Shown one piece after another: positions 35,665 through 43,783 of a DNA stretch of 64,000 bases. The stretch is from Variovorax paradoxus EPS (GTDB lineage Bacteria; Pseudomonadota; Gammaproteobacteria; Burkholderiales; Burkholderiaceae_C). The notes under the pieces were generated by a model. That model had not been told where the DNA came from. It ran no database searches and saw only the letters and a list, made by a program, of their open reading frames with translations. Numbering within the stretch: position 1 is the first letter of the stretch; every line of letters begins with the position of its first letter. Made by a program: the position numbers and the translations under genes. The stretch is taken from contig NC_014931.1 of assembly GCF_000184745.1 (NCBI RefSeq), positions 1,984,001 to 2,048,000 on the forward strand, read 5' to 3'.

Positions 35665-36015
35665 ATGCCACGCTCGCTCGTCGCCGCCGTCTTCGCGGTC
35701 CTCCTTTGCTGCCACGGCCTCGTCGTGTTCGCGCAGGGGCTGGTCGACGCGGCGAACCAGCGCGACGAGGTGGCGCACGTGCTCTTTGCCGACGCAACCG
35801 CGGCGGCCGATTCGGCGGGCACGGCCGGTGCCACCCAGCCCGCGGACGACGCGGACCTGGACATCGGCCACAGCATCGAAGCGCCCTTCGTCGAGCACCT
35901 GTTCGGCTTCACGCCGCTGCCGGCATCGCAGCCGGAATTCGCGCCGGCGTTCTTCTCGCTGACCTTCCTCGAGCGGCCGACGCGGCCGCCCCAGCCGCTC
36001 TCTTCCTGCGCGTAG
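35665..36015 (+). CDS. small secreted hypothetical protein
   Basis: The 116-residue product has a signal peptide (MPRSLVAAVFAVLLCCHGLVVFAQ). After it comes a short acidic Ala/Asp-rich stretch and a C-terminal part with Phe and Pro (VEHLFGFTPLP, PEFAPAFFSLTFLERP). I do not recognise a family. It stands alone between the LysR gene and the beta-hydroxylase gene, 12 bases after the former. The 128-base gap after it holds a small GGGCC-TTC-GGCCT-type hairpin and no clear terminator. Confidence 0.5.
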   Translation: MPRSLVAAVFAVLLCCHGLVVFAQGLVDAANQRDEVAHVLFADATAAADSAGTAGATQPADDADLDIGHSIEAPFVEHLFGFTPLPASQPEFAPAFFSLTFLERPTRPPQPLSSCA

Positions 36016-36143: not shown

Positions 36144-36785
36144 ATGAAGCACTCAAGAGATGTCATGTTCGCGAGGCTGGCCAATTTCCGAATCGATGCC
36201 GATGCGCTGCGGCGACATTTCCTGGACCACGTCCGCCAGTTGCCGTCGATGCCCTATCGCGACAACCGCGTCGACTACATCGGCTGGGCCGTGACCAGCC
36301 GCGACGGCACGCTGACCGACGGCATCCGCCGCATTCCCGGCAAGCAGCCTTTCGTGCCCGGCACTGCCCCGACCGACGCTTGCTCCGGCTACCTTGCCAC
36401 GGTGATGGATGCCTTGCACGACGCCGGCCTCCAGCCTTTTCGCGCACGCATCATGCAGCTGGAAAGCGAAGGCGCGGAGATGCCGCTGCACACCGACGCA
36501 CTCAAGGAGACCTGGCGCCTGCACATTCCGATCATCACAAATCCGAACTGCTTCTTCGAATGGCAGCGCGCGGACGGCAGCATCGAGAGCGTGCACCTGC
36601 CCGCCGACGGTTCGGCCTGGCTGGTGCGGGTGGATGTGAACCATCGCGCCGTAAACCGCAGCAACGAGCCTGCCAGCCGCGCGCATCTGCTGATGGGCCT
36701 GAACCCGGGACCTGAATTCCGGATGCTTGCCGAGCCCTGGCTGCCGGTGTTCCGGAACGAGGGCGCCCTTGCCGTGGCGGGCTGA
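36144..36785 (+). CDS. Asp/Asn beta-hydroxylase-like 2-oxoglutarate oxygenase
   Basis: The 213-residue protein fits the aspartyl/asparaginyl beta-hydroxylase fold. Iron ligands are His116 and Asp118 in PLHTDALKETWRLHIPI and His167 in DVNHRAVNRSN, and SRAHLLMG would supply the 2-oxoglutarate Arg. Bacterial relatives hydroxylate amino acids or other small acids during natural product or surface sugar biosynthesis. GAGGAGAA before the ATG is a strong ribosome site. It opens the group of unusual same-strand genes up to 43783. Confidence 0.78.
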   Translation: MKHSRDVMFARLANFRIDADALRRHFLDHVRQLPSMPYRDNRVDYIGWAVTSRDGTLTDGIRRIPGKQPFVPGTAPTDACSGYLATVMDALHDAGLQPFRARIMQLESEGAEMPLHTDALKETWRLHIPIITNPNCFFEWQRADGSIESVHLPADGSAWLVRVDVNHRAVNRSNEPASRAHLLMGLNPGPEFRMLAEPWLPVFRNEGALAVAG

Positions 36786-36789
36786 CCCG

Positions 36790-38550
36790 ATGCCGAACGG
36801 TGAACCCGACGGTTTCGGCGCCTGGAAGTCCGCGGCGGACATCGACGCCGAATTGCAGGCCTTCAGCAAGTCGGACCAGCTGGAGCTCAGCCTGTACCGC
36901 TTGCGCAGCGCATTGAAGCAGGACCCCGCATTCAGGAAAGAGATCCTTCCGAGATACCAGGACGCGCTGCTTCTGTCCGGCAACGTCAATGCCGCGCTGG
37001 AGCTCCGGGGCAGCGCCCCCTGGAAGGAAGAGTTTCAGAAAGATGCCAAGGGCATGGATGTCGCGTTCACCCAGTTGATCGCGGGGCAGATCGGCCAACT
37101 GGCGCGCAGGCTGGAGCAGGTGATCGATGCCTCTCCCTTCGAATTCGCCGCCTATCTGGCCGGCTTGAAAAGGCACCACCTCGCCACCTACGGAAGCCTT
37201 GCCGGCATCGTCAGGCCGCTGGTCGAGGAACGGTCGTTTCCGGAGCCGCAGGACAAGGTCGCGATGACGCTCGCGATCGAGGGATTCAGCGGCTATGGCG
37301 AAGACATCCACAAGGAAACGCTGATCGACTTCTTCGAGAAGAACAACCACGAAGTGCTGTGCAAGTTCTTCCAGACGGTGCTTCCCGCCAATGGAAAGAT
37401 ATTCAGGGACTTCGTCGCCGACATCCTGCAGGCCGACAACGGCGTGCGCTCTCTGAACGAGGCCGGCGTCTGCCGCTTGCTGATCCTTGGATATGCATTG
37501 CTGGACGACGCCACCCATGACCGCATGGTCCGCCAGGTGCACGACACCTGCGGCGCCCCGGGCACCGAGGCCAGCAGGCAGGCGCGTTCCAACGCAAGAA
37601 TTGCCCGCGCCTTCTGCACCGATGTCCGGCGGCCGGCGGCCGGTGCAAGAAAGGACCTGAGCATCGCCGTGTGCGTCTCGGGGCAGATGCGCGGATACGT
37701 CGAGGCGTTCCAGACCTGGAAGCATCTTCATCTCGACGGGCACCGGGTCAGGTACTTCGTTCACACTTGGGAAGACACGGGCTGGCGGTTTCCCGATCCG
37801 ATCTCGGGCAACGGCGTGGACCGCATCTTCAAGCACGCGCCGTTCGCGCAGGCCTACAGGCAGGCTGGATTCCAGTACGGCACCGACGTCCTGAAAAAAG
37901 CCTATCCGCATTTCTTCGCCTCGCTCACCGTGTCCTCGACGATCGGCGAGGCGGACATCAAGGCTCTGTACGGCAGCGATGCGGCGGTTGTCATCGAAGA
38001 CCACCGCACGCCCCAGTTCGAGAACGACGCCAACAACCAGCGCAAGATGTTCTACAAGATCCAGGAGGCGCACCGCCTGATGGCGGAGGACGGCGAAGCC
38101 TTCGACCTCGTGCTGAGAATCCGGCCGGACCGCACCTTCCGCGCCGGTCCCGCGAAGCCCGACTGGGCAAAGATGGCCAAGGAATGCCGCAGCCAGCGCG
38201 TGATCTATTTCAATAACCTCATGCTCACCAAGACGCTCTATGCGGGGGATCAATTCGCCATTGGATCGCCCGAGGCGATCAGCTGCTATGCCAACACGCT
38301 GAAGCTGCAGACGCAGGCAATCGAGGAGAAATGGTTCGGCTTCCCCGGGCGACTGCGTTCCCATTGCTCGCTCGCGCATTCCCTGCTGTTCCAGGGCGTT
38401 CGGCGCCGACCGCTGGAGGACATTTATCCGACCGAAGCGATGCCGGCCGCGACATACGGCAAGGAAGAGCTGAAGAAATTGCTGTCCGCCGATTTGCCTT
38501 CGGGCCCTGTGAGCGAGATCGATAAATTGCTCTGGAACTCCCTGAATTGA
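36790..38550 (+). CDS. putative glycosyltransferase-like protein of the surface locus
   Basis: The 586-residue protein has two parts. Residues 1 to about 280 are helical and resemble no family I know. From about 292 a domain begins SIAVCVSGQMRGYVEAFQTW and RVRYFVHTWEDTG, a pattern met in capsule and exopolysaccharide loci in uncharacterised transferase-like proteins. A DLVLRIRPDRTF segment near residue 440 is a second conserved block with likely sugar-nucleotide acids. The start is 4 bases after the hydroxylase stop. Its transferase role is inferred. Confidence 0.5.
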   Translation: MPNGEPDGFGAWKSAADIDAELQAFSKSDQLELSLYRLRSALKQDPAFRKEILPRYQDALLLSGNVNAALELRGSAPWKEEFQKDAKGMDVAFTQLIAGQIGQLARRLEQVIDASPFEFAAYLAGLKRHHLATYGSLAGIVRPLVEERSFPEPQDKVAMTLAIEGFSGYGEDIHKETLIDFFEKNNHEVLCKFFQTVLPANGKIFRDFVADILQADNGVRSLNEAGVCRLLILGYALLDDATHDRMVRQVHDTCGAPGTEASRQARSNARIARAFCTDVRRPAAGARKDLSIAVCVSGQMRGYVEAFQTWKHLHLDGHRVRYFVHTWEDTGWRFPDPISGNGVDRIFKHAPFAQAYRQAGFQYGTDVLKKAYPHFFASLTVSSTIGEADIKALYGSDAAVVIEDHRTPQFENDANNQRKMFYKIQEAHRLMAEDGEAFDLVLRIRPDRTFRAGPAKPDWAKMAKECRSQRVIYFNNLMLTKTLYAGDQFAIGSPEAISCYANTLKLQTQAIEEKWFGFPGRLRSHCSLAHSLLFQGVRRRPLEDIYPTEAMPAATYGKEELKKLLSADLPSGPVSEIDKLLWNSLN

Positions 38551-38599
38551 AGATAGCCGCCATTCCTTGAACGCCTGGCTCCGACTCCGAGAAATCGTC

Positions 38600-39712
38600 A
38601 TGCGAATGTCCGCAAGCGGCGCGGTGGCGCCGGCCATCCAGTTGCCATGGAAGCAGTTGTTCGCGGGCGGCACCCTCGCATGCGCCGCCTGTGTTCCGTC
38701 GGTGTCCGCACAGGAACTGAAGGACATTCCGGAGTGCAGGACTTCGAGGAATCAGCACCGCCTGAAGCTCGAGCAAAAGTATGAGTTCAACGGCATCCGC
38801 GTTTTCTACACGCAGGCGGGGCCCCATGCGCTGTACACCGGCGCCGATCTCAATCGCAACGGCGTGCCCGACATGGTGGAGGACGCGGCGCTTCACCTGG
38901 ACACGGTGCGCCAGATCTTCAACCGCAACGGATTCCGCGATCCGCTCGACAGCCCGCGATTCCGCCATGCCGAATCCATCGACATCGATTTCCTGAACTT
39001 CGATGTCTACAGCCCCGAGATCACCGACAAGCGGGGCCTGTCGTTCTCGGGGGTCATCCGCTATCCGGGAAGCCGCATCAGGGCCGACAAATGCTCGATT
39101 TCGATGGCCATCAATTCATCGCTGAAGGGTAATCACGAGCGGGTGAAGGACTACCTGATTCCGCATGAGCTGTTCCACCTGTACCAGTACGGCTACACCA
39201 TGTTCCGTGCGAGTTGGTTCCTGGAGGGCATGGCGAAATGGGCGGAATGGGTCACGCTGGCGGAGAACGATCGCAATCCGAAGCTGTGGAGCACGCCCTT
39301 GCCCGCATCGGCGCAGGAATTGAATGAGCGTGTGTTCCTCAATCCCAATCCATACGACGTCAGGCATTTCTGGAACCGGCTGGCGGAGCTCGCGAAGAAA
39401 AAGGAGTTTCCGATGATCGTGCCGCCGGATGTGCGAGACCGGAGATTCGCCGATGGAACCCCTGTGATCAGGGACAACATCTGGCGCGGCCGCGCGCTCA
39501 TGCTGAAGATCCTGGAAGGGCTGGATGCGGAAGACGATGCCGCCGCCCACGAAAACAAGTCACAGCCCTACGCTTGGGCCAATGAAGAGCAAAGAAATAC
39601 GGCGCACAACCCGCGGCTCATGAAGGTGGTGCAGCGCGCGCTGGCCTCCTACGGAATCGCCGGTGCCGAGGTCAGGCAGTTCCTCGCCATCGATCCGGCG
39701 GCGTCGAACTGA
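38600..39712 (+). CDS. secreted HExxH metalloprotease-like protein
   Basis: The product of 370 residues begins with a signal peptide (GTLACAACVPSVSAQ). A calcium-loop-like DLNRNGVPDMVED lies near residue 95. The zinc motif IPHELFHLYQYG has His189, Glu190 and His193, and FLEGMAKWAEW 16 residues on offers Glu209 as third ligand, as in gluzincin peptidases. ATG at 38600 is chosen, but an in-frame TTG at 38567 extends it. A peptidase amid sugar genes may trim a surface protein or have another hydrolytic role. Confidence 0.65.
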   Translation: MRMSASGAVAPAIQLPWKQLFAGGTLACAACVPSVSAQELKDIPECRTSRNQHRLKLEQKYEFNGIRVFYTQAGPHALYTGADLNRNGVPDMVEDAALHLDTVRQIFNRNGFRDPLDSPRFRHAESIDIDFLNFDVYSPEITDKRGLSFSGVIRYPGSRIRADKCSISMAINSSLKGNHERVKDYLIPHELFHLYQYGYTMFRASWFLEGMAKWAEWVTLAENDRNPKLWSTPLPASAQELNERVFLNPNPYDVRHFWNRLAELAKKKEFPMIVPPDVRDRRFADGTPVIRDNIWRGRALMLKILEGLDAEDDAAAHENKSQPYAWANEEQRNTAHNPRLMKVVQRALASYGIAGAEVRQFLAIDPAASN

Positions 39713-39764
39713 GAGAAGGAGAAAACAGCTTGATTCCATCGATTCCCGGCCGAGGACATGGCCT

Positions 39765-41324
39765 GTGATCATCATCACGTCCGCCGCCTATGTCGACTCC
39801 GAATTGCAATCCGAATTCGGCAGATTGCCTCCGGCTTTTCTTCCCGTCGGCAACCGCCGCCTGTTCCTGCGGCAGTTCGCGGTGCTGCATGCGCGCCTTC
39901 CGGGCGAGAGCATCTACCTCTCGCTGCCCGAGAGTTATGCGATCCCTCACCGTGACGTTCGCGCGCTCGAAACCGAAGCGGTGCAGGTGCTGCGGGTGCC
40001 GGACGGGCTCTCGCTGGCCGATTCGGTGCTGTTCTCGATCAACACCATCGGCCGGTACGACGAGGGGCTGCGCATCCTCCACGGCGACACGCTCATCCTC
40101 GACCTCCCGGCCGCCTGGGACTGCCTCTCTGTCGCGGAGTCGGCCGACGACTACAACTGGCACGCCGACCCGAGCCCCGACGCCGCGGCGCGCGTGTGGT
40201 GCGGCTATTTCGCCTTCCAATCGGCGGGCCGGCTCGCCAAGTGCCTGGTCGCCGCGCGCGGGTCGTTCGAAAAAGCCGTGAGTGCCTACGACCAGGCCTG
40301 CTATCTGGAGCGCGTCGAGACCGAAAACTGGTCGGACTTCGGTCACGTCAACACCTTCTACCGGTCGCGCGCCCGCATCACCACGCAGCGTGCGTTCAAC
40401 GACCTCGCCATTGGCGACCGGCGCGTGCGCAAGACCGGCCGGCCCGCCGAAAAGATCAAGGCCGAAGCCGGTTGGTTCGAGGCGCTGCCTTCGCGGCTTC
40501 GCGTGTACGCCCCGCAACTGCTGGCGTACGGCGCCGTCGAGCCGGATGGCTACAGCTACGAGTTGGAGTACATGTGCATGGCGCCGCTCAACGAGTTGTA
40601 TGTGCACGGCCGGAACTCGGCGGCGTTCTGGTCCCGCGTCTTCAGGCACCTGGCCGGCTGGTTCGCGGCCTGCCAGTCGGCCGTGCCCATGGGCGAGAGC
40701 GAACGACGAATGGCCGCCGACGACAGCCACGGCATGCTGGCCGAAAAAACCCGCATCCGCATGGGCGCCCATGCGTCGGCCAATGGGCTGAGCCTGTCGG
40801 CGCCGACACGCCTGAACGGGCGGCCGCTGCCGTCGCTTGCCGCCATCCTGGAGCGCTGCATCGATGCCGCCGCGCGCGTGCCGCTGGTGCCCGGCGTGAT
40901 GCACGGCGACCTGTGCTTCAGCAACATCCTGTTCGACACGCGTTCGGACTGCATCAAGGTGATCGACCCGCGCGGCCTCAACTTCGAGGGCGAGCCCCGG
41001 TTGCTGGGCGACCTGCGCTACGACCTGGCGAAGGTCTCGCATTCGGTGCTGGGGCTGTACGACTACATCGTTGCCGATGCCTTCGACATCGATGAGGGCA
41101 CCGGGCTGGACTTTCACCTGCGCATCCACGCCGACGAAGACGCGGCCGCCATCCAGAAGCTGTTTGCCGGCCTGCCGCTGCTGAGCGGCATGACCGCGCG
41201 CCATGTCGCGCCGATCACCGTCATGCTGTTCCTGTCGATGCTGCCGCTGCACCAGGACACGCCGCGCCGCCAGCGCGCGATGCTCGCCAATGCATTGCGC
41301 CTTTTCGAGCAAATGGAGCACTGA
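39765..41324 (+). CDS. nucleotidyltransferase-like/APH-kinase fusion, capsule-type
   Basis: The 519-residue protein combines two parts. The N-terminal half (IIITSAAYVDSELQSEFGRLPPAFLPVGNRRLFLRQ) resembles sugar nucleotidyltransferase-like domains of capsule loci but lacks the full GGxGTR-type signature. The C-terminal half has the kinase motifs of the APH/choline kinase fold: VMHGDLCFSNILFD with the catalytic Asp near residue 384, and IKVIDPRG with the metal Asp. Start is a GTG at 39765 behind GAGG. It is followed after 4 bases by a second nucleotidyltransferase. Confidence 0.7.
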   Translation: MIIITSAAYVDSELQSEFGRLPPAFLPVGNRRLFLRQFAVLHARLPGESIYLSLPESYAIPHRDVRALETEAVQVLRVPDGLSLADSVLFSINTIGRYDEGLRILHGDTLILDLPAAWDCLSVAESADDYNWHADPSPDAAARVWCGYFAFQSAGRLAKCLVAARGSFEKAVSAYDQACYLERVETENWSDFGHVNTFYRSRARITTQRAFNDLAIGDRRVRKTGRPAEKIKAEAGWFEALPSRLRVYAPQLLAYGAVEPDGYSYELEYMCMAPLNELYVHGRNSAAFWSRVFRHLAGWFAACQSAVPMGESERRMAADDSHGMLAEKTRIRMGAHASANGLSLSAPTRLNGRPLPSLAAILERCIDAAARVPLVPGVMHGDLCFSNILFDTRSDCIKVIDPRGLNFEGEPRLLGDLRYDLAKVSHSVLGLYDYIVADAFDIDEGTGLDFHLRIHADEDAAAIQKLFAGLPLLSGMTARHVAPITVMLFLSMLPLHQDTPRRQRAMLANALRLFEQMEH

Positions 41325-41328
41325 AAAA

Positions 41329-42045
41329 ATGTTTGTCATTCCAATGGTCGGCAAGAGCCGCCGATTCACCGAGGCCGGCTATGCGCTGCCCAAGTACCGC
41401 CTGCCGCTGCACGGCGAAACTGTTTTCTTCCATGTCGTGAAGTCGTTCGAGCACTACTTCGAGGACGACCTGTTCCTGTTCGTGGTGCGACGCGATCACG
41501 ACGTCGCGGGTTACTTGAAGCAGGAGTTGAAGAACCTGGGCGTCAAGGAGTTCCGTATCGTCGAACTCGACGGCGACACGCTCGGCCAGGCCGACACCGT
41601 CCACCAGGGGCTGCGGCAGGTCGACGCCGGCGATGCGCTCTACATCTTCAACATCGACACCATCCGGCCCGGCTTCAGGAAGTCGGCGCTGGCGGCCGGT
41701 GCACAGGGGTACCTGGAGGTCTTCGAGGGCGAGGGCGAGCATTGGTCCTTCGTCGAGCCCGGTCCCGACCGCACGGTGCGAAGGACCACGGAAAAAGAGC
41801 GCATCTCCAACCTCTGCAGCGACGGCCTCTATCACTTCGCCGATGCGCGGGTCTTCGACGAGGCCTTCGAGCACCAGCGCGCGGGCAAGCTCATGAACCG
41901 GGGCGAGTTCTACATCGCGCCTTGCTACAACGCGCTGATCGCCAAGGGCGCGCGCGTGGTCTACGAACTGATCGACCGGAGCGAGGTGGTGTTCTGCGGC
42001 AATCCGCAGGAGTACGAGGAGGCAGGGGCAAGGAAATGGGCATGA
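41329..42045 (+). CDS. nucleotidyltransferase of capsule biosynthesis type
   Basis: The 238-residue protein opens MFVIPMVGKSRRFTEAGYALPKY, the short pyrophosphorylase-like start, and keeps the sugar-1-phosphate or phospho-alcohol nucleotidyltransferase pattern (LGQADTVHQGL near residue 85, YIFNIDTIRP near 105, the latter with the metal Asp). It probably activates a phosphorylated compound by attaching CMP or UMP. With the kinase fusion just upstream it recalls LicA/LicC, which phosphorylate and cytidylylate choline. The real substrate is unknown. Confidence 0.7.
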   Translation: MFVIPMVGKSRRFTEAGYALPKYRLPLHGETVFFHVVKSFEHYFEDDLFLFVVRRDHDVAGYLKQELKNLGVKEFRIVELDGDTLGQADTVHQGLRQVDAGDALYIFNIDTIRPGFRKSALAAGAQGYLEVFEGEGEHWSFVEPGPDRTVRRTTEKERISNLCSDGLYHFADARVFDEAFEHQRAGKLMNRGEFYIAPCYNALIAKGARVVYELIDRSEVVFCGNPQEYEEAGARKWA

Positions 42046-42079
42046 ACATCGCGATCGGAAGTGGACGGGGAAACGCGCA

Positions 42080-43783
42080 ATGAGCCTGGGCGAACTGCTG
42101 GCATCGGCCAAGCCGGCTCTTGCGGCGACATGGGACGAATGCGTGGCCGCGCCGGCCCCGGGCGTGCTCTTCATGTCGGTGTGCAACGGCAAGGAGCGCG
42201 CACACGTGGTGACGGTCCGCGGCAAGAATTTCGAAGAGGTCTGGCGCCGCGGCGCGCAGTTGCTGCAGGCCTGGTTGCGCAAGCAGGGCGGCGCGCCACT
42301 CTGGCTGCGCGTGGACGTGGTGCACACGGTGGACACCATGACCTGGCAGGCGCTCAAGCAGGCGCTCGCGACAACCAAGCGCAACTACTTTCGCCACGGC
42401 ATCGCCTTCGACGCCGAACTGTCGGTGGCCATGCTCGAGGAGGACATCGGCGCGAACGCCGTGCTGTACGACGGCAAGTTCGAGGAGGCGACGCCCAATG
42501 CCGCCAACCTGAAGCTTTTCGGCCAGCATCGCTACGGGCGCGAACTGCAATGGCCCAATGAGGCGCAGCAGCCGGTGTGGGTGTTCGACACGCGGGCGGT
42601 GTTCACCGACGGCAGCGAGTGCCATGCCATCGAGCACCAAGGGCGCAACCGCGGCCACCGGCGCCTGGCCACGTGGGATGCAGGCCGGGTCCACGGCATC
42701 GTCTCCACCGGCACGGCGTATCTCGCGCGGCAGGTGAAGTCATCGGGCGCCTATCACTACGGCTGGTTTCCGTGCTTCGACCGTGCCATCCCCACCTACA
42801 ACGCGCTGCGCCATGCGAGTTCGACCTACGCGCTCATCGAAGGCTGGGAACTCACCCGCAGGCCCGAACACAAGGCGGCCATCGACCTGGCGCTGGGCTA
42901 CCTGACCGGCACGCTGATCCAGCGTGCGGTGCTGCCCGGCGGCGAGGGCGCGGCCTTTCTTGTCGACACCGGCGACGAAATAAAGCTGGGCGGCAATGCC
43001 GTGTGCCTGCTGGCACTGGTCAAGTACACCGAACTCACCGGCGACACGCAATACCTGGCGCTGCTGGAGCAGCTGGCGCTCGGCATCCTCCACATGCAGG
43101 ATGCGAAGAGCGGGCGTTTCGTCCATGTGCTCAACCATCCCGACCTGAGCGTCAAGGAAGAGAGCCGCATCATCTATTACGACGGCGAAGCCGCCTTCGG
43201 CCTCATGCGCCTGTACGGGCTGACGCGGGATGCGCGCTGGCTGCAGGCGGTCGAGAAGGCATTCGAGCACTTCATCGCGGCCCGCCACTGGGAGGCGCAC
43301 GATCACTGGCTGAGCTACTGCGTCAACGAGCTCACGATCTACAAGCCGGATGCGCGCTATCTGCGCTTCGGCCTGGACAACGTGCGCGGCCACCTGGACT
43401 TCGTGCTCGACCGCATCACCACCTTTCCGACGCTGCTGGAGCTGATGATGGCGGCTCAGAAAATGATCGTGCGGCTGCAGGCAGAGCCCGAACACGCGCA
43501 CCTGCTCGAAGGTTTCGACGTCGACAAGTTCTACCGCGCCCTCGAACAGCGCGCGCGCTACCTGCTGACAGGCCACTTCTGGCCCGAGCTCGCGATGTTC
43601 TTCAGGAATCCGGCGCACGTCGTGGGTAGCTTCTTCATCCGGCACCACAGCTTTCGCGTGCGCATCGACGATGTGGAGCATTACCTTTCAGGCTTCGTGG
43701 CGTACCGCAAGTACCTGGAGGCGGGCGGGCGGCCCGCAGTAGTGGTGCAGGCGCCGGCTCAATGCAGTTCGGCCGCTGCGTGA
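42080..43783 (+). CDS. uncharacterised protein with alpha/alpha-barrel sugar-enzyme-like domain
   Basis: The 567-residue cytoplasmic-looking protein has an alpha/beta N-terminal part to about residue 190 (SVCNGKERAHVVTVRG, AMMECR1-like only by eye). A helical repeat domain follows with AYHYGWFPCFDRAIPTYNALRHASSTYAL and IIYYDGEAAFGLMRLYGLT, the pattern of (alpha/alpha)6 barrels of glycosidases and epimerases. The enzyme class cannot be fixed. It ends the six-gene set and overlaps the converging PHA depolymerase gene by 25 bases. Confidence 0.55.
   Translation: MSLGELLASAKPALAATWDECVAAPAPGVLFMSVCNGKERAHVVTVRGKNFEEVWRRGAQLLQAWLRKQGGAPLWLRVDVVHTVDTMTWQALKQALATTKRNYFRHGIAFDAELSVAMLEEDIGANAVLYDGKFEEATPNAANLKLFGQHRYGRELQWPNEAQQPVWVFDTRAVFTDGSECHAIEHQGRNRGHRRLATWDAGRVHGIVSTGTAYLARQVKSSGAYHYGWFPCFDRAIPTYNALRHASSTYALIEGWELTRRPEHKAAIDLALGYLTGTLIQRAVLPGGEGAAFLVDTGDEIKLGGNAVCLLALVKYTELTGDTQYLALLEQLALGILHMQDAKSGRFVHVLNHPDLSVKEESRIIYYDGEAAFGLMRLYGLTRDARWLQAVEKAFEHFIAARHWEAHDHWLSYCVNELTIYKPDARYLRFGLDNVRGHLDFVLDRITTFPTLLELMMAAQKMIVRLQAEPEHAHLLEGFDVDKFYRALEQRARYLLTGHFWPELAMFFRNPAHVVGSFFIRHHSFRVRIDDVEHYLSGFVAYRKYLEAGGRPAVVVQAPAQCSSAAA

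Follow-up and report, generated by a model that had tools for sequence, protein, structure and literature searches.

Six closely spaced genes of Variovorax paradoxus EPS raise the question of what their products modify. A sequence-only reading had taken them for a surface-glycan pathway, in which a small acid would be hydroxylated, phosphorylated, nucleotide-activated and transferred to a glycan. We examined these genes in the window (the whole 64,000-nucleotide stretch of DNA analysed, from the complete 6.55-Mb genome labelled G000), and followed their relatives through other genomes.

Organization of the locus and its gene products

Six open reading frames on the + strand at positions 36144-43783 of the window, named P0001 to P0006, are separated in order by 4, 49, 52, 4 and 34 bases, in agreement with the earlier description of same-direction genes with gaps of 4 to 52 bases. 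A crude caller based on codon-position GC bias classed five of the six as coding and missed P0001, which we accepted as a gene because it is conserved. Scanning the locus for promoters and terminators gave no more sites than were found in shuffled sequence. A seventh, small gene on the + strand (35665-36015), absent from the earlier list, lies 5' of P0001. It encodes a protein of 116 aa with a hydrophobic N-terminus and a C-terminal ERPxRPP, which had no match in a Pfam profile search. This small gene is found with more than one kind of flank in 8 of the 12 Variovorax loci that carry P0001, and belongs with the locus as its first gene. At the other end, a PHB depolymerase-like gene (PF06850; 43759-45057) is convergent to P0006 and overlaps its 3' end by 25 bases; this gene also adjoins the operon in L059, L060 and L063. 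An autotransporter gene (PF03797; 46228-49467) also lies 3' of the operon; it has no Asp-X repeat, and nothing ties it to the locus.

P0001 (36144-36785, + strand) resembles the aspartyl/asparaginyl beta-hydroxylases, which are Fe(II)/2-oxoglutarate dioxygenases. The curated profile score of PF05118 was reached, although marginally (23.9 bits, cut-off 22.6), and all 11 aligned P0001 members matched this profile at E values up to 0.01. The alignment (n = 11) shows no variation at H116, D118, H167 and R179, which we take to be candidate metal and 2-oxoglutarate ligands. The likeness to known beta-hydroxylases consists of this family match and these residues, whereas the score is marginal and any substrate of P0001 is putative. 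P0002 (36790-38550, + strand) is a probable transferase with a helical N-terminus and a C-terminal domain (about residues 288-557) that is GT-A-like, unlike the GT-B fold of GT4 enzymes. P0003 (38600-39712, + strand) is an HExxH-type metallopeptidase, probably exported. It matched NF045524 (MXAN_6640 metalloprotease) with an E value of 1.1e-15 and 58.1 bits, below the curated cut-off of 140 bits, and its HELFH motif at 189-193 (H189, E190, H193) and E209 are invariant (n = 13).

P0004 (39765-41324, + strand, GTG start) has a predicted nucleotidyltransferase N-terminal part fused to an APH-type kinase (PF01636, 27.2 bits, cut-off 23.2). In its HGDLCFSN motif (380-387) the HGD, C and SN are invariant (n = 26). 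With HTD at 116-118 of P0001 and HELFH in P0003, all three motifs read earlier from the sequence (HxD, HExxH and HGDLCFSN) were recovered. Relatives of P0004 numbered 2286 among the candidates scored. A single-sequence search of P0004 against PDB gave no match, and structure assignment by PDB profile search was abandoned, as it yielded nothing beyond short matches with designed TPR proteins. P0005 (41329-42045, + strand) is a nucleotidyltransferase that matched PF12804 (27.8 bits, cut-off 27) and PDB 4evw (8.1e-62 over 1-231). The sequence-only reading is thus supported on two points: genes for nucleotide activation, in the form of the kinase fusion and the nucleotidyltransferase, and a transferase, which we find to be GT-A-like.

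Two separable modules

In V. boronicumulans CC172, one locus (L069) carries counterparts of all six at 94-98% identity. Across the family, a search of 150 genomes gave P0006 relatives in seven and P0004 relatives in three, two of the latter being about 30% identical. The two occur together in the window's genome alone, and the six-gene set is therefore not a family-wide unit. P0004 was present in just 5 of 300 Burkholderiales genomes, the window's own included and one of them a short weak match, so that no order-wide gene context could be derived.

Within the genus, P0001 orthologues (74% identity or more; four weaker matches of 30-35% were left uncounted) occurred in 12 of 101 Variovorax genomes, every one of which was P0006-positive. 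In all 12, the P0003 gene shares the locus with P0001. The full six-gene set is found with its order kept in six of these 12 (G000, G158, G219, G152, G172 and G239), contrary to the concern that the six genes might never occur together elsewhere. The idea of one conserved unit holds to the extent that gene order is kept in these six genomes, beyond what chance would give, but fails for the family, through which the set does not travel. Three of the six loci (G152, G172 and G239) have an additional HAD-phosphatase gene. The G209 locus has five genes and is missing P0006; the loci of G235, G175 and G227 consist of P0001-P0003-P0006 only, without P0002, P0004 and P0005; and that of G176 has P0001-P0003. 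The G181 locus (L202) is decayed, with remnants of P0002 and P0006, and contig C1 of G172 carries P0006 fragments; these decayed copies suggest repeated loss. P0004 was found in 7 of the 101 Variovorax genomes, always within this locus, in addition to one short weak match in G151, and P0003 relatives in 19 of the 101, each P0006-positive.

The locus is therefore built of two separable modules: module A, comprising P0001, P0003 and P0006, and module B, comprising P0002, the HAD gene, P0004 and P0005. Module B is present in 7 of the 12 P0001 loci and is interleaved there, with P0002 between P0001 and P0003. Since the hydroxylase occurs without the activation genes, and the converse also occurs, neither depends on the other. 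The proposal that the hydroxylase feeds the kinase was not upheld, as G235, G175 and G227 have the hydroxylase without the kinase and nucleotidyltransferases, and capsule-type loci have the set without the hydroxylase. We have dropped the small-acid pathway of hydroxylation, phosphorylation and activation as the main reading of the locus, because hydroxylase and activation genes occur separately.

These capsule-type loci, with relatives of module B and transporter genes alongside, were found in Phaeobacter, Caballeronia and an E. coli plasmid; those of Phaeobacter and E. coli also have CDP-glycerol transferase genes. In the E. coli ST131 plasmid pMB9366_2 (L195:5924-10359), the capsule-type locus with the CDP-glycerol transferase gene includes relatives of the HAD, nucleotidyltransferase-kinase and nucleotidyltransferase genes of module B. 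Relatives of P0002 are nearby in Phaeobacter, the E. coli plasmid has a very distant one, and Caballeronia gave no match. The Variovorax genes resemble this cassette (HAD, nucleotidyltransferase/kinase, nucleotidyltransferase, transferase) in that relatives of P0004 and P0005 are adjacent there with P0002 relatives nearby (very distant for E. coli), and in that the HAD gene is retained in G152, G172 and G239. They differ in that the Variovorax locus has no capsule genes and the cassette is inserted into module A. In a Paracidovorax MAG (L074), module B relatives adjoin a P0006-CapA-Mur gene; two P0002 relatives and a further gene of metallopeptidase-like type are also present there.

Separability in both directions would also be expected if module A alone acted on an adhesin and module B were a hitch-hiking capsule cassette of unrelated role, merely sharing the transcript. 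We consider this distinctly unlikely: module B is interleaved with module A in 7 of 12 loci, and its relatives again adjoin a P0006-CapA-Mur gene in the Paracidovorax MAG. Another reading starts from the upstream 116-aa protein, which is probably exported and could itself be the substrate, in which case any link to giant adhesins would be merely ancestral. In favour of such a role, its gene opens the locus and accompanies it in 8 of 12 cases, and a hydroxylase, a protease and a transferase would suit a modified peptide. However, the gene was not recognised in the loci of G152, G172, G181 and G176, of which G152 and G172 have all six others, and the protein is weakly conserved (35-43% in three loci) and has no Asp-X run, which leaves it a very improbable substrate.

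The P0006 family and aspartate-repeat adhesins

P0006 (42080-43783, + strand) is a GtfC-like protein of a putatively repeat-handling family, with an N-terminal part of unmatched fold and, in its predicted model, an (alpha/alpha)6 barrel (197-552). The modelled barrel has a fold likeness to cellobiose/N-acylglucosamine 2-epimerases and GH76, but P0006 showed no significant sequence relation to these enzymes and has the extra N-terminal part. A search of PDB by sequence gave no match for P0006, and mapping of epimerase catalytic residues was rejected, since there was no significant alignment (hhalign probability 2%). Whole-protein homology places P0006 in a P0006/GtfC family, whose S. epidermidis member (538 aa) has 37% identity over 524 columns. 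The nearest named relatives are Variovorax proteins, and identity to Proteobacterial members outside Variovorax is about 38-65% among the matches listed. The family is highly conserved and has no Pfam model, and its members go under the names 'Mur ligase', 'poly(glycerol-phosphate) alpha-glucosyltransferase' or 'hypothetical'. An in-frame TGA flagged in P0006 copies of several Variovorax genomes was discounted: the aligned part is stop-free in L052 and L053 (flagged) and in L123, L125 and L143 (similar), and the TGA was therefore taken as the end of a stand-alone P0006 gene. In several Variovorax loci (L123:9800-12711, L052:1327-4163) such a stand-alone relative is directly followed by a gene with a start like that of the aldose 1-epimerase (PF01263) gene of L018.

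A contig scan gave 409 P0006 relatives, of which the best 80 were examined (31 from Variovorax and 49 others). Runs of at least 10 Asp-X units were present in the locus DNA examined for 38 of these best 80, being mostly Asp-Ala in 22, mostly Asp-Ser in 15 and mixed in one. All 38 were among the 49 non-Variovorax loci, with annotated examples in Klebsiella aerogenes, Agrobacterium and S. epidermidis, and none was among the 31 Variovorax loci, which are mainly P0006-CapA-Mur copies and loci of the window's operon type. P0006 relatives were fused or adjacent to a Mur ligase (with or without CapA), a GT4 glycosyltransferase or an ATP-grasp protein, and in 16 of the best 80 loci a type I-kind ABC exporter (>800 bits) lay within 6 kb. 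Of the best 80 loci, 13 also have a P0003-family gene no more than 6 kb from the P0006 relative, nine of these loci being outside Variovorax, and in four Klebsiella loci such a gene comes after a P0006-GT gene. In a Klebsiella aerogenes plasmid record (L147:1100-3809), several pieces labelled 'clumping factor' make up the annotation of the stretch ahead of the secretion genes, and the P0006-GT gene is annotated as tagE.

The type of repeat went with the type of partner. After setting aside from the 38 repeat loci seven without a partner within 6 kb, one with ATP-grasp and one mixed, the remaining 29 comprised 15 with Asp-Ala and Mur, two with Asp-Ala and GT, two with Asp-Ser and Mur, and ten with Asp-Ser and GT (Fisher p 0.0003, kinship ignored). 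Four of the 29 are exceptions to the rule, and 12 of the 15 Asp-Ala/Mur loci are from Enterobacterales. This pairing fits the chemistry, because Asp-Ser has a hydroxyl and Asp-Ala only a carboxylate.

These associations bear on the idea of surface-glycan modification, in which module B would make an activated substituent, P0002 would place it on capsule or LPS, and P0006 would be a glycan epimerase or hydrolase. The capsule-type loci of Phaeobacter, Caballeronia and the E. coli plasmid speak for this idea, as does the modelled P0006 barrel with its likeness to sugar epimerases and GH76. However, many P0006 relatives adjoin (Asp-X)n adhesin and type I secretion genes, and module A is found without module B. 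In addition, no flippase, polymerase or exporter gene was recognised with Pfam among the six genes and the flanking genes scanned, as the sequence-only reading had itself remarked. A glycan acceptor, which that reading had assumed, is not borne out by P0006 and P0003 relatives that track (Asp-X)n adhesin loci, and we regard glycan modification as unlikely.

Variovorax itself has adhesins of this type. Of the 101 Variovorax genomes, 54 have P0006-family genes, and 55 gave matches at an E value of 1e-10 when the L019 Asp-Ala stretch was used as a query. After matches in G159, G213, G241, G242 and G244 (45-50% identity) were dropped as not true repeats, an Asp-Ala protein was present in 50 of 54 P0006-positive and in 0 of 47 P0006-negative genomes (kinship ignored); with these five kept, the counts were 50 of 54 and 5 of 47. 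The four positive genomes without such a protein are G176, G185, G208 and G248. This co-occurrence is partly plain linkage, because one P0006-Mur paralogue adjoins such an adhesin (L019).

Three copies of P0006 occur in the window's genome, together with three (Asp-Ala)n adhesins that form one family and lie at 5.624, 2.990 and 5.537 Mb, none of them close to the window's operon. One of the P0006 copies outside the operon is part of a 1592-aa fusion of a P0006 domain, CapA (PF09587) and a Mur ligase (L018:9087-13865; positions 1237087-1241865 of the genome), and similar genes occur in many Variovorax loci. At L019:3772-15499, genes on one strand encode a P0006-Mur fusion, a 167-aa putative lipoprotein, the (Asp-Ala)n adhesin of about 1456 aa, and the type I secretion proteins HlyD and ABC. 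The operon has the same P0006 domain as these Proteobacterial loci, but their enzymes are Mur or ATP-grasp ligases, and adhesin or secretion genes accompany many of them. The window, L059-L066 and the locus DNA examined for the four named operon-type loci L067-L070 contain no (Asp-X)n gene (L201-L203 were left out of this repeat scan). Since no such gene stands beside the operon, we infer an adhesin substrate in trans.

In staphylococci, a GtfC-type protein is already known to take part in modifying SD repeats. The gene of the S. epidermidis P0006 relative directly follows that of an SdrD-like (Asp-Ser)n adhesin and is convergent to a GT4 enzyme gene, the same gene order as described for gtfC and gtfD in PMC5230774. 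According to that paper, S. aureus GtfC and GtfD are both required for full glycosylation of the Pls SD repeats; in strain 1061 both were required for any Pls glycosylation, whereas with the genes of strain COL weak glycosylation resulted from GtfD alone (PMC5230774). Judged by length, place, kind of name and non-CAZy status, S. aureus GtfC is very probably a P0006 relative. The paper's primer labelled GtfD-mutF, translated by eye, reads KNPSRILG, a motif found towards the end of P0006 relatives, from which we infer that its site is the end of gtfC beside gtfD. If this kinship is right, GtfC would be an epimerase-fold protein and no ordinary glycosyltransferase.

SdgB is described in PMC8561734 as a GT4 enzyme of GT-B fold. 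We rejected P0006 and P0002 as SdgA/SdgB-type GT4 enzymes (DUF1975), since the P0006 model is an (alpha/alpha)6 barrel and P0002 is GT-A-like. The staphylococcal Pls-GtfC/GtfD and Sdr-SdgA/SdgB systems share with Variovorax a P0006-family protein, encoded there beside a modifying enzyme and an adhesin with Asp-X repeats. In contrast, the Variovorax locus has neither a GT4 enzyme nor an adhesin gene; in their place it combines the dioxygenase and the metallopeptidase with a GT-A-like protein and the activation set, and the repeats found in its genome are Asp-Ala and serine-free. No GT4, Mur or ATP-grasp partner was matched by Pfam among the six genes and the flanking genes scanned, the dioxygenase and GT-A-like protein being found in their place. 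With no such partner and no adjacent (Asp-X)n adhesin, we did not file the locus as a GtfC/GtfD-type adhesin locus.

A proposed role in adhesin modification

Gene order, the two modules, protein families, co-occurrence and the linkage of the family to repeats are what we observed. On balance, they incline us to the view that giant secreted adhesins, encoded elsewhere in the same genome, have their long (Asp-Ala)n repeats modified by this locus. The point weighing most strongly against this role is that no adhesin gene adjoins the operon; module B is also present in just 7 of the 12 P0001 loci, the PF05118 match is marginal, and the P0006 fold would suit a glycan role as well.

If adhesin repeats are the substrate, the P0006 family is the constant part of Asp-X systems from staphylococci to Proteobacteria, probably binding or processing the repeat and offering it to an exchangeable modifying enzyme. 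This partner would be a glycosyltransferase for mostly Asp-Ser repeats, and a Mur-type or ATP-grasp ligase for mostly Asp-Ala repeats. In the Variovorax locus the modifying enzyme would be P0001, hydroxylating the Asp of serine-free repeats. In the full version, P0004 and P0005 would make a nucleotide-activated group, with the HAD phosphatase in some strains, and P0002 as a GT-A-like protein would transfer this group, perhaps to the hydroxyl made by P0001. P0003 might trim or release the exported adhesin, or check its modification. Only tentatively do we put forward this specific chemistry, that Asp hydroxylation of (Asp-Ala)n is followed by GT-A capping with a nucleotide-activated group on a modular, phylum-crossing GtfC/P0006 platform. 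By analogy, and as no more than a possible comparison, hydroxylation followed by capping could be a bacterial parallel to the hydroxylation and then glycosylation of collagen.

In the open-licence PMC literature, searched by title and start of abstract, we found no account of this locus, of Asp-Ala repeat modification or of a link between Mur ligases and adhesins; nor was any publication found there on the version with a dioxygenase, the division into two modules or the Asp-Ala/Mur branch. If true, the adhesin role would explain the P0006 family and tie it to giant aspartate-repeat adhesins across phyla. It would also predict new side-chain chemistry on the repeats, namely hydroxylation and amide ligation, and the as yet unexplained part of GtfC in glycosylating staphylococcal Pls would become testable in a soil bacterium.
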